Positions 55,391 to 63,223 of a stretch of 64,000 nucleotides of DNA are shown in pieces. The notes under the pieces were generated by a model, which worked only from the letters and a program-made list of their open reading frames with translations, made no database searches and was not told the DNA's origin. Origin of the DNA: an uncultured Pelagibacteraceae bacterium (GTDB lineage Bacteria > Pseudomonadota > Alphaproteobacteria > Pelagibacterales > Pelagibacteraceae); assembly GCA_902587755.1 (NCBI GenBank), contig CACIMN010000002.1:1-64000 (forward strand), written 5' to 3'. The stretch's first letter is position 1; each line of letters opens with the position of its first letter. The position numbers and the translations under genes were made by a program.

Positions 55391-55881
55391 TAGAATTTTA
55401 AACTTATTAAATATATTAATATCGTTGAATATAACCCTGCCATTATATCATCCATAATTATTCCAAAATAGTTTTTATGATTTTTGTCAAAATAACTTAC
55501 TGGAAAAGGTTTTAGGATGTCAAAAAATCTAAAAAAAACAAAAGATAAAATATAATAAATTTCAATGGAAATACTTATTTGATTAGTTTGATTTAAATAA
55601 AGCAACAAAATTAAAGGCATTGATTGCCCCAAAACTTCATCGATTACTATTTGTCTTGGATCTTTATTTTTAAATTCAGATTCAGCATCTTTTACTGCAT
55701 AAAATGAATAAATGAATAGAAGTATAAAAAAAATTATTGAAAAATTAAGATCTGTGTAACCTAAAATTTCGTAAGCAATGTAAATAAAAATAGTTGTTAC
55801 AGCAGAGGTTACAGTCCCCGGGATTTTGGTTAAATAACCATAACCAAAGAATGTGGATAACAAAACATTTATTTTTTTCAT
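55390..55881 (-). CDS. pgpA: Phosphatidylglycerophosphatase A
   Basis: Start taken at internal Met (MKKINVLLSTFFGYGYLTKIPGTVTSA), giving ATGA overlap with ispDF; IVIDEVLGQSMPL, RFFDILKPFPVSYFDKN..GIIMDDIMAGLYS. Confidence 0.9.
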   Translation of the reverse strand: MKKINVLLSTFFGYGYLTKIPGTVTSAVTTIFIYIAYEILGYTDLNFSIIFFILLFIYSFYAVKDAESEFKNKDPRQIVIDEVLGQSMPLILLLYLNQTNQISISIEIYYILSFVFFRFFDILKPFPVSYFDKNHKNYFGIIMDDIMAGLYSTILIYLISLKF

Positions 55882-56978
55882 TGTGTAATTGAGCAAATAA
55901 CTTCGCAAGCTATTGCTTTTTCCTTTCCAATTAATCCAAGTTTTTCGACTGTTTTACCTTTTAAGTTAATTAATTCTTTATTAATATTTAGTAAATTGGA
56001 TAGAGATTTGATTATTTTATCACGATATTTTGAAACTTTTGGTTGTTCACATATTAAATTTATATCTAAATTATTTATATAAAAGTTATTATTATTTAAT
56101 ATTTCAATAATAGGCTTGAGCATTTTAGGCGATCTAATATTTTTATATTTTTTTTGATTATCTGGAAAAAAAGTACCAATATCTTTTTTTCTCATTGCCC
56201 CAAGGAGAGAATCAATTATTGAATGAATAATTACGTCTCCATCTGAATGACCTTTAAGCCCTGAGTGATAAGGGATTTTAATTCCACCTAAAAAAAGTTT
56301 TTTACCTATTATTAATCTATGAATATCAAAACCAACACCAAAATAAGTTTTATTAGTTTGGATATCATCTTTAAATGTAATTTTGTTGTTTAAGTTTTCT
56401 CCTTTAATAAATTTAATTTTTAAATTGTTTTCAATAAACAAAGTTGCTTCATCAGTAATTTTATTTTTCTGTTTATTTGAAAGACTATATAAATTTTTAA
56501 ATCTAAATGCTTGAGGTGTTTGAGTTAACATTGAATTTTTTCTATCTAAGTTAAAAAATTGGTTTTTTATTTTGTATTTAATTGAATCTTTTGAATGTAT
56601 GTAAGGTATTACTGCTTTATTGTTTTTAAGTGATTTAATTAGCTTTATTAAAAGTTTGATAGTGAAATTAGGTCTAGCAGCATCGTGAATTAGAACATTG
56701 TTAGGTTTAAATTTTTTTATATATTTTAATGCTATTGAAGAAGAATCGGATCTTTCTTTGCCACCTTTTATGATTAATACATTTTTAGGAAATTTTCCCT
56801 CAATATTTTTTTTATTATTCACGACCAATATAATTTTTTTAAACAGCTTTGATTTCAATGCTTTTTCTATAGAATGTTTAAAAAGAGGCTTGTTTTTATA
56901 AATAATAAATTGTTTAGGTTTATCAGAATTAAATCTTTTGCTTTGTCCTGATGCTAGTATTATAAAATAATTATCCAT
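55878..56978 (-). CDS. ispDF: Bifunctional IspD/IspF
   Basis: 366 aa; IspD-like N-terminus (LASGQSKRF, IHDAARPN, QTPQAF) fused to IspF (GVGFDIHRL, GHSDGDVIIHSIIDSLLGA, DIGTFFPD). Confidence 0.95.
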   Translation of the reverse strand: MDNYFIILASGQSKRFNSDKPKQFIIYKNKPLFKHSIEKALKSKLFKKIILVVNNKKNIEGKFPKNVLIIKGGKERSDSSSIALKYIKKFKPNNVLIHDAARPNFTIKLLIKLIKSLKNNKAVIPYIHSKDSIKYKIKNQFFNLDRKNSMLTQTPQAFRFKNLYSLSNKQKNKITDEATLFIENNLKIKFIKGENLNNKITFKDDIQTNKTYFGVGFDIHRLIIGKKLFLGGIKIPYHSGLKGHSDGDVIIHSIIDSLLGAMRKKDIGTFFPDNQKKYKNIRSPKMLKPIIEILNNNNFYINNLDINLICEQPKVSKYRDKIIKSLSNLLNINKELINLKGKTVEKLGLIGKEKAIACEVICSITQ

Positions 56979-57003
56979 TTATTTTGGTAGTTTTTATATT
57001 CAA

Positions 57004-58785
57004 ATGTACGAATTTATTAAAAAAAATATATATCTAATAATATTATTTATTATCACATTATCGATAGGTTTTTTAACCTTTTTAACTTTTATAGATAAAG
57101 GATTTATTGAATTAACTGATCAAAATTTACAAATACTACTAGTTTTAAATATCTTTCTTTTAGTAACACTTTTTATATTTATTTTTATTGAAATTAGAAG
57201 TGCTATTAAAAATGATATTGATAAAGATGGTTTAAAAGCAAATAAAAAATATATTACATATTTTGGATTGTTCACATTAATTCCCTCATTATTAATCTCA
57301 ATATTTTCATTATTTTTATTTTCTTTTGCATTAGAAAAGTATTTTGACAAAAAAGTAACAACAGTTGTTAATAATTCTTATGAATTAGCAAGAAACTACG
57401 TTGAAGAAATTAGAAATAAAATACAGTCAGATATAGTTTTAATAGCTTTCGACACAAATAAAAGTAAAAAATTTTTAAATGACAATCCTAATGAATATAG
57501 AAGGTTTTTAAATACACAAAAATTAATTAGAAAAGTAGACGAGGTACATATTATAGATATTAATAAAAAACTTTTATTTACCACTTTGAATAATGATCAA
57601 TCATATATCCCACCCGTAGATAGAGCTCTAAATTTAGTTTTAGAGGATGATCGTCCTTTAAAAATTATTAATGCACCTGAAAATATTTCAGCAGCAATAA
57701 TGAGACTTCAAAATTTTGAAGATAGATTTTTATATGTTGTAAAATATTTAGATAAAAATATTTCACGATATTTAACTGAGTCTCAGGAAGCTATTAATTT
57801 TTACTATACAGTGGAGGAAAAAAGTACTGGAATTAAAATCTCATTTGCAATTATATACATCATAGTTGTTAGCGTTTTATTGTTTGTCTCAATATCAATT
57901 GCTATAAGATTTTCATCTAGATTCTTTAGATCTATAAATAATTTAATACTTGCATCGAGCTCTATTGGAAAAGGAAACTTTGATGCAAAAGTACCTGAGG
58001 TTAAAACAGATAAAGATTTAGAAACTTTAAATAAAAATTTTAATTTAATGATTGATAGATTGAAAACTCAGCAAGAAAAATTAATTATAAATGAGAGGCA
58101 TGAAGCATGGGAGAGCCTAGCTAGAAAACTTGCACATGAAATAAAAAATCCATTAACTCCAATTCAATTAACTATAGATAGGCTAAAAAATAAATATTCA
58201 ACAAAATTAAATCAAGATAACTCTGAAAATTTTAAAGAAAACTTAAAAATTATAAATTACCAAATAAAACAAATTGAAAAATTAGTAAATGAATTTTCTG
58301 ACTTTGCAAGGATGCCAAAACCTATATTTAGACAAAATAACATTATTGATATAATGGAAGATAATATAAAATTACTCAATGAGTTAGATAAAACAATTGA
58401 AATAAATTTTGTTAAAAAATCTCAACAAATTTTATTGCAGAGTGACAAAGAGCAAATAAGTAGAGTTTTTCTAAATCTGATAAAAAATTCTATAGAAAGT
58501 ATTAACCAAAGGAGTCAAAATGATAGCAATTTCAACAAAAAAATTACTATTGAAGTTAATGAAGATAATAGCCACATCAATGTAATTATAAAAGACAATG
58601 GAGTAGGTTTTAGTAATCTTAAGGAGAGTATTAAAAATATTTTAAATCCATATTTTACAACAAAAAAAAATGGAACCGGGCTTGGATTATCAATTGTCAA
58701 TAAAATTGTAAATGACCATAATGGTAATATAGAATTTATGCCTGTTGAATATGGAGCTAAAATAAAAATTAATTTTGTAAAATAA
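57004..58785 (+). CDS. ntrY: NtrY-type sensor histidine kinase
   Basis: 593 aa; N-terminal TMs, HAMP, H-box LAHEIKNPLTPIQLTIDRLKNKY, N/G boxes LNLIKNSIESI, GTGLGLSIVNKIV; followed by ntrX. Confidence 0.92.
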   Translation: MYEFIKKNIYLIILFIITLSIGFLTFLTFIDKGFIELTDQNLQILLVLNIFLLVTLFIFIFIEIRSAIKNDIDKDGLKANKKYITYFGLFTLIPSLLISIFSLFLFSFALEKYFDKKVTTVVNNSYELARNYVEEIRNKIQSDIVLIAFDTNKSKKFLNDNPNEYRRFLNTQKLIRKVDEVHIIDINKKLLFTTLNNDQSYIPPVDRALNLVLEDDRPLKIINAPENISAAIMRLQNFEDRFLYVVKYLDKNISRYLTESQEAINFYYTVEEKSTGIKISFAIIYIIVVSVLLFVSISIAIRFSSRFFRSINNLILASSSIGKGNFDAKVPEVKTDKDLETLNKNFNLMIDRLKTQQEKLIINERHEAWESLARKLAHEIKNPLTPIQLTIDRLKNKYSTKLNQDNSENFKENLKIINYQIKQIEKLVNEFSDFARMPKPIFRQNNIIDIMEDNIKLLNELDKTIEINFVKKSQQILLQSDKEQISRVFLNLIKNSIESINQRSQNDSNFNKKITIEVNEDNSHINVIIKDNGVGFSNLKESIKNILNPYFTTKKNGTGLGLSIVNKIVNDHNGNIEFMPVEYGAKIKINFVK

Positions 58786-58786
58786 T

Positions 58787-60142
58787 ATGAATGAAGAAAT
58801 TTTAATTGTTGATGATAATGCGGATATAAGAAATATTATTAATGAATTAATATTGGATGCTGGTTATAAAACACGGTTAGCTGCAAACTATAATCAAGCA
58901 CTTGGTGAAATTGATAAAAAACTCCCAGATGTTGCAATACTCGATGTTAAGTTAGATAAAGGCGATAATGATGGCATTGAATTATTGTCACATATAAAAT
59001 CTAAAAATAAAGATATTCCTGTTATAATTATATCTGGGCATGCAAATATTGAAATGGCTGTAAAGTCTCTTCAACATGGTGCTTTTGAATTTATTGAGAA
59101 ACCCTTTGATCAAGAAAGATTATTAAATTTTATTAAAAGAGCAGTAGAAAATTTTAATTTAAAAATACAAAATAAAGAATATGAAAGTAAATTATTTTCC
59201 TCTTATGAATTAATTGGTAATAGTAAAAATATAATTAATATTAACGAGCAGATAAAAAAAATATCAATTACAGAAAGTAGAGTCTTAATTAGGGGACCTT
59301 CAGGTTCAGGAAAAGAATTAATAGCTAGAAAAATTCACAAAGCTTCAAGTAGAAATAAAAATCCATTTGTTATATTAAATGGAGCTCTTTTAGATTTTAA
59401 TAAATATGAGTTAGAATTATTTGGTGAAGAAAAAGAAAATGGTACGATTTCTTATGGAGCACTTGAAAAAGCAAATAAGGGAACACTCTTGATTGATCAG
59501 GTTTCTGAAATACCATTAGATATTCAGTCTAAAATATTAAGAGTTTTGACTGACCAAAAGTTTAAAAGAGTAAATGGAAACAATGATGTAACCGTAGATG
59601 TAAGATTAATATGTTCATCCAGTAAGGATCTAAAAAAAGAAATTGAAATTGGAAATTTTAGAGAAGATTTATTTCACAGAATAAATGTATTTGAAATTAA
59701 TATTGAGCCATTAAGCCAAAGAATTGCAGACATACCTCTTTTAATAAAATATTTTTCAAAAAAAATATCTGAAAATTACAAAATTAAAAAATTAGAAATA
59801 GATGAAAACAACACTTATATTTTGAATCATAATTGGCATGGAAATGTTAGAGAATTAAGAAATTTAATTGAGAGAATTGCTATTTTACAACCAGAGAGTA
59901 AAGATAAAGTTTCAAGTATCATTAAAGAGTCCTTGAAAAATACTAGTTATGATGATCAAATGACTGAAAAAAGTCTATCTATACCGTTAAAAGAGGCTAG
60001 AGAAAAATTTGAAAAAGAGTATTTAACTGTCCAACTAAAAAAATTTAATGGAAATATCTCAAAAACAGCAAATTTTGTAGGTATGGAAAGAAGTGCTTTG
60101 CATAGAAAATTAAAGGGTTTGGGAATAAAAGAATTTAATTAA
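58787..60142 (+). CDS. ntrX: NtrX-type response regulator (receiver + AAA+ + Fis HTH)
   Basis: 451 aa; receiver VDDNADIRN..ILDVKLDKGD..EKPF, Walker A GPSGSGKE, C-terminal HTH NGNISKTANFVGMERSALHRKLKGLG; no GAFTGA, Walker B DQ. Confidence 0.92.
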   Translation: MNEEILIVDDNADIRNIINELILDAGYKTRLAANYNQALGEIDKKLPDVAILDVKLDKGDNDGIELLSHIKSKNKDIPVIIISGHANIEMAVKSLQHGAFEFIEKPFDQERLLNFIKRAVENFNLKIQNKEYESKLFSSYELIGNSKNIININEQIKKISITESRVLIRGPSGSGKELIARKIHKASSRNKNPFVILNGALLDFNKYELELFGEEKENGTISYGALEKANKGTLLIDQVSEIPLDIQSKILRVLTDQKFKRVNGNNDVTVDVRLICSSSKDLKKEIEIGNFREDLFHRINVFEINIEPLSQRIADIPLLIKYFSKKISENYKIKKLEIDENNTYILNHNWHGNVRELRNLIERIAILQPESKDKVSSIIKESLKNTSYDDQMTEKSLSIPLKEAREKFEKEYLTVQLKKFNGNISKTANFVGMERSALHRKLKGLGIKEFN

Positions 60143-63048: not shown

Positions 63049-63185
63049 TTTCTTACATATTTGCCAATATATTTTAGCAAATTTTGCTTGACTGGAATTA
63101 TTCTAAATCATTTTTAGAAATTAATTTTTCTTGAAGAGTATTTTCTTCCATGCTTAAATTAAGAATATTCAAAAGTAATTTTGAA

Positions 63186-63203
63186 TTATTTGTTAACAAA
63201 TAA
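63186..63203. promoter_or_regulatory. 18-bp perfect palindrome TTATTTGTTAACAAATAA upstream of aapJ
   Basis: Directly read; 20 nt between its end and the aapJ ATG. Confidence 0.5.
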
Positions 63204-63223
63204 AAATAACATAAAGGAAGAAT

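Follow-up and report, generated by a model that had tools for sequence, protein, structure and literature searches.

The window, i.e., the whole 64,000-nucleotide stretch of DNA from an uncultured Pelagibacteraceae bacterium that was analysed here, carries adjacent genes for a sensor histidine kinase and a response regulator of the NtrYX type (Table 1). The kinase gene ends one base before the start of ntrX, and its product matches the PF19312 NtrY_N model with 72.2 bits (cut-off, 23.2). The regulator contains the Pfam domains Response_reg, Sigma54_activat, AAA_lid_14, and HTH_8 and was the sole Sigma54-activator-domain protein found in its own genome (1.29 Mb, 96% complete). Its best full-length NCBIfam model was NF051870 (NtrX) with 537.9 bits, followed by the NtrC model with 335.5 bits. 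The NF051870 equivalog cut-off of 600 bits was not reached; it is by synteny and by its position in the tree, and not by this cut-off, that the protein is assigned to the SAR11 branch of NtrX. The nearest solved chain was Brucella NtrX 5m7n (E=1.1e-116).

Table 1. Features of the ntrYX locus and motifs of its response regulator; positions are those of the window.
Feature	Position	Strand	Basis
ntrY, cognate sensor histidine kinase, directly 5' of ntrX	57004..58785	+	NtrY_N, HAMP, HisKA, HATPase_c
ntrX, response regulator (receiver, AAA+, Fis-type HTH), 451 aa	58787..60142	+	Pfam, NCBIfam, 5m7n
Receiver phospho-acceptor Asp53	58943..58945	+	D in 262/262 NtrX
Walker A GPSGSGKE, residues 170-177, with Lys176	59294..59317	+	Lys in 105/105 of Gln clade
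Glutamate-switch Asn198 (PspF N64)	59378..59380	+	N in 105/105 of Gln clade
Shortened L1 loop EEKENGTISYGALEKANK, at the place of GAFTGA	59426..59479	+	No GAFTGA-like hexapeptide in 262 NtrX
Walker B Asp237-Gln238 (GAT CAG), canonically Asp-Glu	59495..59500	+	Sequence, relatives
Sensor I Ser278-Ser279 (PspF T148-N149)	59618..59623	+	Alignment
Arg-finger motif RxDxxxR, R292/D294/R298	59660..59680	+	Invariant in 105/105 of Gln clade
Sensor II Arg355	59849..59851	+	105/105 of Gln clade
Fis-type HTH DNA-binding domain	59999..60127	+	HTH_8

Upstream of the gene pair, an open reading frame that reads in translation as a fused IspD-IspF protein (366 aa, minus strand, 55878-57004) runs divergently. 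Its start is separated from ntrY by 25 bases, a gap that could hardly accommodate a separate ntrY promoter. On the 3' side, ntrYX-trkAH is followed by a yhdW/aapJ-like gene for the binding protein of an amino-acid ABC transporter (from 63225, plus strand). About 25 to 60 bases 5' of this gene, at 63167-63204, a perfect dyad, ATTCAAAA-GTAA-TTTTGAAT, is followed by the palindrome TTTGTTAACAAA, and a candidate promoter (TTGAAG-N17-TTAAAT) is located just 5' of this block. All 17 Pelagibacter genomes aligned with the window contained the block TTGAATTATTTGTTAACAAATAAA in exact or nearly exact form, with the sequence farther 5' diverging, and TTTTGAATTATTTGTTAACAAATAAA occurred as an exact single copy in 44/121 genomes. 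Within the own genome, a TTCAAAA-N-TTTTGAA dyad with a spacer of up to 5 bases occurred just twice. Judged from its sequence, the block may be either an operator or an mRNA leader. We do not claim it as an NtrX site, as it reads CAAN8TTG in the window, outside the published CAAN2-5TTG spacing.

Around its AAA+ motifs, the NtrX translation reads ...KYELELFGEEKENGTISYGALEKANKGTLLIDQVSEIPLD..., with LFG at residues 211 to 213 (from 59417). Inspection of these motifs bore out the initial annotation, which had reported that the sigma54 contact loop GAFTGA is missing, that the catalytic Glu of Walker B is replaced by Gln, and that Walker A, the receiver Asp, the FREDLFHR region (with RxDxxxR), and the Fis-type HTH are kept. 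The substitution lies exactly where it had been placed, with Asp237 encoded by GAT (59495-59497) and residue 238 by CAG (59498-59500), and all of the motifs named as retained are present. Sensor I is changed as well and reads Ser-Ser, a state shared with many other NtrX proteins of SAR11. Two further lines were rejected: an AlphaFold model made without an alignment was discarded (mean pLDDT, 38.5), and the PspF hydrolysis residues E118 and Y126 were dropped as additional signs of ATPase loss, since canonical NtrC differs at these positions too.

The missing loop turned out to be a trait of the family, since a GAFTGA-like hexapeptide was found in 0/262 distinct NtrX sequences from SAR11, the sister family, and other alphaproteobacteria, including genomes with rpoN. 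As a control, the NtrC paralogue adjoining NtrYX in 12 genomes showed a GAFTGA-type motif in 11/12 and an intact Walker B DE in 12/12 cases. Brucella abortus NtrX (5m7n/5m7o/5m7p) and other alphaproteobacterial NtrX proteins share the domain order of the window protein and its shortened L1 loop; Brucella NtrX, however, has DE at Walker B where the window protein has DQ. In agreement with the initial annotation, loss of GAFTGA had already been recorded for Caulobacter NtrX (PMC10274813). The missing motif is thus ordinary and, like action through sigma70, known for the wider family. What is new is that the catalytic Glu has been lost; we found no mention of this loss in the literature searched, which comprised mostly titles and abstracts and few subscription papers.

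The supposition that SAR11 lacks RpoN was also supported: a search for rpoN (PF04552) returned none in the own genome (96% complete) or in 146 sampled relatives, i.e., in any of the 147 family genomes searched, and the control search was positive in 4/14 named genomes, E. coli among them. Consistently, sigma70 and sigma32 were reported as the only sigma factors of HTCC1062 (PMC13198564). GAFTGA, the catalytic Glu, and an rpoN gene in the genome, by which a sigma54-dependent enhancer-binding protein is recognized, are all missing for the window NtrX. Loss of rpoN was rejected as the cause of the Walker B change, however; overall, the interpretation given in the initial annotation is supported in part. 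Most NtrX proteins of rpoN-less SAR11 outside the clade with Gln retain DE. Conversely, 9/68 NtrX sampled outside SAR11 are without DE (the sequences were not randomly drawn, so that this is no frequency), and rpoN was present in 5/9 of the respective genomes (G377, DH; G365, KE; G319, NE; G317, DD; and G427, SS). In G377 and G365, NtrC keeps its Walker B DE and NtrX has lost it. Loss of sigma54 is hence not required for loss of the Walker B Glu in NtrX.

Among 107 distinct relatives that share 81% identity or more with the window NtrX, site 238 was Gln in 103; the remaining four had His (3) or Asn (1), and Glu was found in none. These residues occurred in single-contig genomes, single-cell genomes, and MAGs alike. 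In the other sampled clades of the genus (about 76% identity or lower), site 238 was Glu throughout. The majority of the family's other genera likewise have Glu, as does the neighbouring family f2 (20/20 sequences). Four further SAR11 genera (g5, g7, g9, and g12) had Asn in 21/21 sequences. Six single-contig genomes across these groups are ones that we take to be HTCC1062 (DE), HTCC7211 and HIMB5 (DQ), and LSUCC0530, HIMB114, and IMCC9063 (DN). DE in all close relatives had been named beforehand as the sign of a sequence error. The close clade speaks against this, all of its members having Q, H, or N; one step out, in contrast, the sister Pelagibacter clades do have DE. That the change is a sequencing or assembly error is refuted by the same state in >100 distinct sequences, single-contig genomes included, and deserves virtually no credence. 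Six near-complete Pelagibacter genomes of the order sample (94-97%; G127, G143, G160, G170, G186, and G192) gave no ntrX match, which reflects either assembly gaps or true loss.

For phylogenetic placement, an NtrX tree was computed with the site-238 column left out and with f2 (Glu) as the outgroup. The Gln and His sequences grouped together within the genus with full support (the Gln clade), and the Asn sequences, as one group or two, branched basally in the family. With the former nested, the latter basal, and the outgroup having Glu, the catalytic residue was lost at least twice independently in SAR11 NtrX. Only positions 238 and 246 were fixed for different residues between the family-wide Glu groups and the Gln clade. 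In one member of the clade (L166) Asp237 is replaced by Glu in addition, and the sequence with Asn238 (L324) was placed outside the remaining members in the nucleotide tree.

On the nucleotide tree, codon 238 of the Gln clade underwent about 14 synonymous changes (CAA/CAG) and 1 amino-acid change (to His, CAT). With an assumed transition bias of 3, neutral evolution of CAA/CAG would be expected to produce roughly threefold more amino-acid than synonymous changes, so that the observed ratio marks strong constraint on Gln itself. Both codons are just one base from GAA or GAG, yet Glu was never present in the clade. By this codon record, Gln238 is actively maintained by purifying selection. Lys176, N198, R292, R298, R355, and D53 were invariant in 105/105 sequences of the clade and D237 in 104/105; Lys176 showed 11 synonymous and 0 amino-acid changes, and sensor II Arg355 showed 12 and 0. 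The nucleotide-binding domain diverged at 1.08 times the level of the whole protein in the Gln clade, compared with 0.94 in its Glu sisters and 0.94 to 1.02 in other groups, and the slowest-evolving domain of the clade was the Fis-type HTH. Substitution patterns thus show that the ATP-binding residues of the AAA+ domain are retained under selection.

These data bear on the view that the ATPase is decaying under relaxed selection in a streamlined genome and that Gln238 arose by drift. The absence of rpoN from SAR11 and of a second Sigma54-activator-domain protein from the own genome would fit with it, as would the broad decay of ATPase motifs in NtrX of the small-genome alphaproteobacterial sequences L274, L276, and L277. 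It is already contradicted, however, by an ATP site that is otherwise invariant in the Gln clade, a domain rate that is not raised, and the purifying selection on Gln, and we regard it as very improbable. In the decayed group, which also includes L278 (genomes G401, G427, G354, and G323 for L274, L276, L277, and L278), several members have a disrupted Walker A motif or lack its Lys, and the receiver Asp and the HTH Arg are kept; the AAA+ domain of NtrX is apparently dispensable in these genomes.

The window substitution is identical, at the homologous position, to the E108Q mutation of PspF, and both proteins have the switch Asn and RxDxxxR. This mutation abolishes ATP hydrolysis and not ATP binding (PMC4132715, PMC3419264): Vmax is 0.07 per min, compared to 39.5 for the wild type (PMC3419264), ATPase activity is <1%, affinity for ATP rises about 30-fold, the protein is hexameric whatever the nucleotide, and the Gln keeps its pairing with N64 in all nucleotide states (PMC4132715). 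Unlike the window NtrX, PspF has GAFTGA, no receiver domain, and sigma54 as its partner, and its E108Q change is artificial. NtrC of Rhodobacter capsulatus and of Caulobacter resembles the window protein in lacking the sigma54 loop and acts on sigma70 promoters; these proteins are NtrC and not NtrX, however, and their L1 deletions differ from that of the window protein. For R. capsulatus NtrC, which is without GAFTGA, sigma70 activation is described as needing ATP binding and not hydrolysis (cited in PMC10274813), and this protein serves as a precedent for the window NtrX.

Gln, Asn, and RxDxxxR of the window protein are those of PspF E108Q. The best reading is that of an ATP-binding, essentially non-hydrolysing NtrX whose assembly would depend on phosphorylation and on ATP occupancy, and since no rpoN was found in the own or the 147 family genomes, its targets are taken to be sigma70 promoters. 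We consider it probable, from sequence and from analogy with PspF, that NtrX is such a regulator, practically without hydrolysis. Its AAA+ domain would constitute a natural "Walker B trap," in which the water-activating Glu238 is replaced by Gln and the residues for ATP binding and for contact with the neighbouring subunit are all in place. NtrY would phosphorylate D53, upon which the AAA+ domain would bind ATP and, turning over little ATP or none, assemble or remain assembled on DNA. Through its Fis-type HTH the protein would be positioned at promoters of sigma70 (or sigma32) RNA polymerase, sigma54 being absent, and ATP would serve as a structural ligand or as a sensor of the energy state. 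Switching off would then occur via dephosphorylation or departure of ATP. Negligible hydrolysis, bound ATP, a stabilised oligomer, and promoters of the sigma70 type are what we infer for this protein.

Several points weigh against an ATP-trapped NtrX. Biochemical work on any SAR11 NtrX was not found in the literature searched, and the PspF E108Q work used sigma54, which is absent in SAR11. In Caulobacter NtrC, replacement of the Walker B Asp (D235A) gives no growth on ammonium (PMC10274813), and a relative without GAFTGA may therefore need hydrolysis. The base might also, in principle, be provided by a different acidic residue. Finally, constitutive assembly of NtrX might make ATP irrelevant. 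The last point is the core of another explanation, by which Gln238 would hold the AAA+ ring permanently in its oligomeric form, a nucleotide-independent scaffold that spaces the HTHs, so that phosphorylation alone would switch the protein. PspF E108Q is indeed hexameric with or without nucleotide (PMC4132715), and V. cholerae VspR, without GAFTGA, is described as not needing ATP in the citing text of PMC10274813. In addition, the Arg finger is replaced by His in the close clade L067-L069; in PspF, the R162H exchange has a Vmax of 0.08 per min, and constitutive hexamers likewise result from R162 substitutions (PMC3419264). The strong selection on Lys176 (0 amino-acid and 11 synonymous changes) and Arg355 (0 and 12), which are not obviously needed without nucleotide, makes such a scaffold rather unlikely in our estimation. 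It is less probable still that NtrX hydrolyses ATP usefully, Gln being tolerated or another base being used as a mild tuning of activity. While the residual activity of PspF E108Q is stimulated by sigma54 complexes (PMC4132715) and an ATPase assay of any NtrX from the Gln clade was not found in the literature searched, there is no carboxylate base among Q, H, and N at site 238, and PspF E108A, E108Q, and D107A are all <1% active (PMC3419264).

Other changes in the ATP site may be alternative ways of losing hydrolysis. In L067, L068, and L069 (genomes G051, G162, and G093), Walker B DE is intact and the Arg finger at residue 292 is His (CAC/CAT), which by analogy with PspF would be a possible second way in which this genus has lost ATPase activity. 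All 7/7 sequences of genus g9 (L051, L054, L055, and L057-L060) have the switch pair exchanged, with Asn198 replaced by Asp and Glu238 by Asn; this exchange, one event in one clade, hints that a contact of residues 198 and 238 may still be under selection. Tentatively, and with slightly more doubt than confidence, we propose that NtrX ATPases of SAR11 may have been switched off repeatedly by selection, by Gln, by Asn (in g9 with Asp198), and by His in the Arg finger, to yield ATP-locked sigma70 regulators, and that HTCC1062-type and HTCC7211-type NtrX form a natural matched pair. The NtrX of G026 (HTCC1062-type), from the same genus, is 76% identical to the window protein with Walker B DE kept, which makes it a natural counterpart to compare with the DQ form. 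As related strains differ at site 238, the need of NtrX for hydrolysis versus binding of ATP becomes directly testable.

SAR11 are the most abundant bacteria in the ocean. NtrYX is one of their four or five two-component systems (PMC13198564, PMC10592609), and with so few of them the way it switches is important for nitrogen regulation in an organism that dominates the ocean. If the ATP-bound, non-hydrolysing reading is true, the NtrX of these bacteria would be a natural, selectively kept counterpart of the mutation made to trap AAA+ proteins with ATP.
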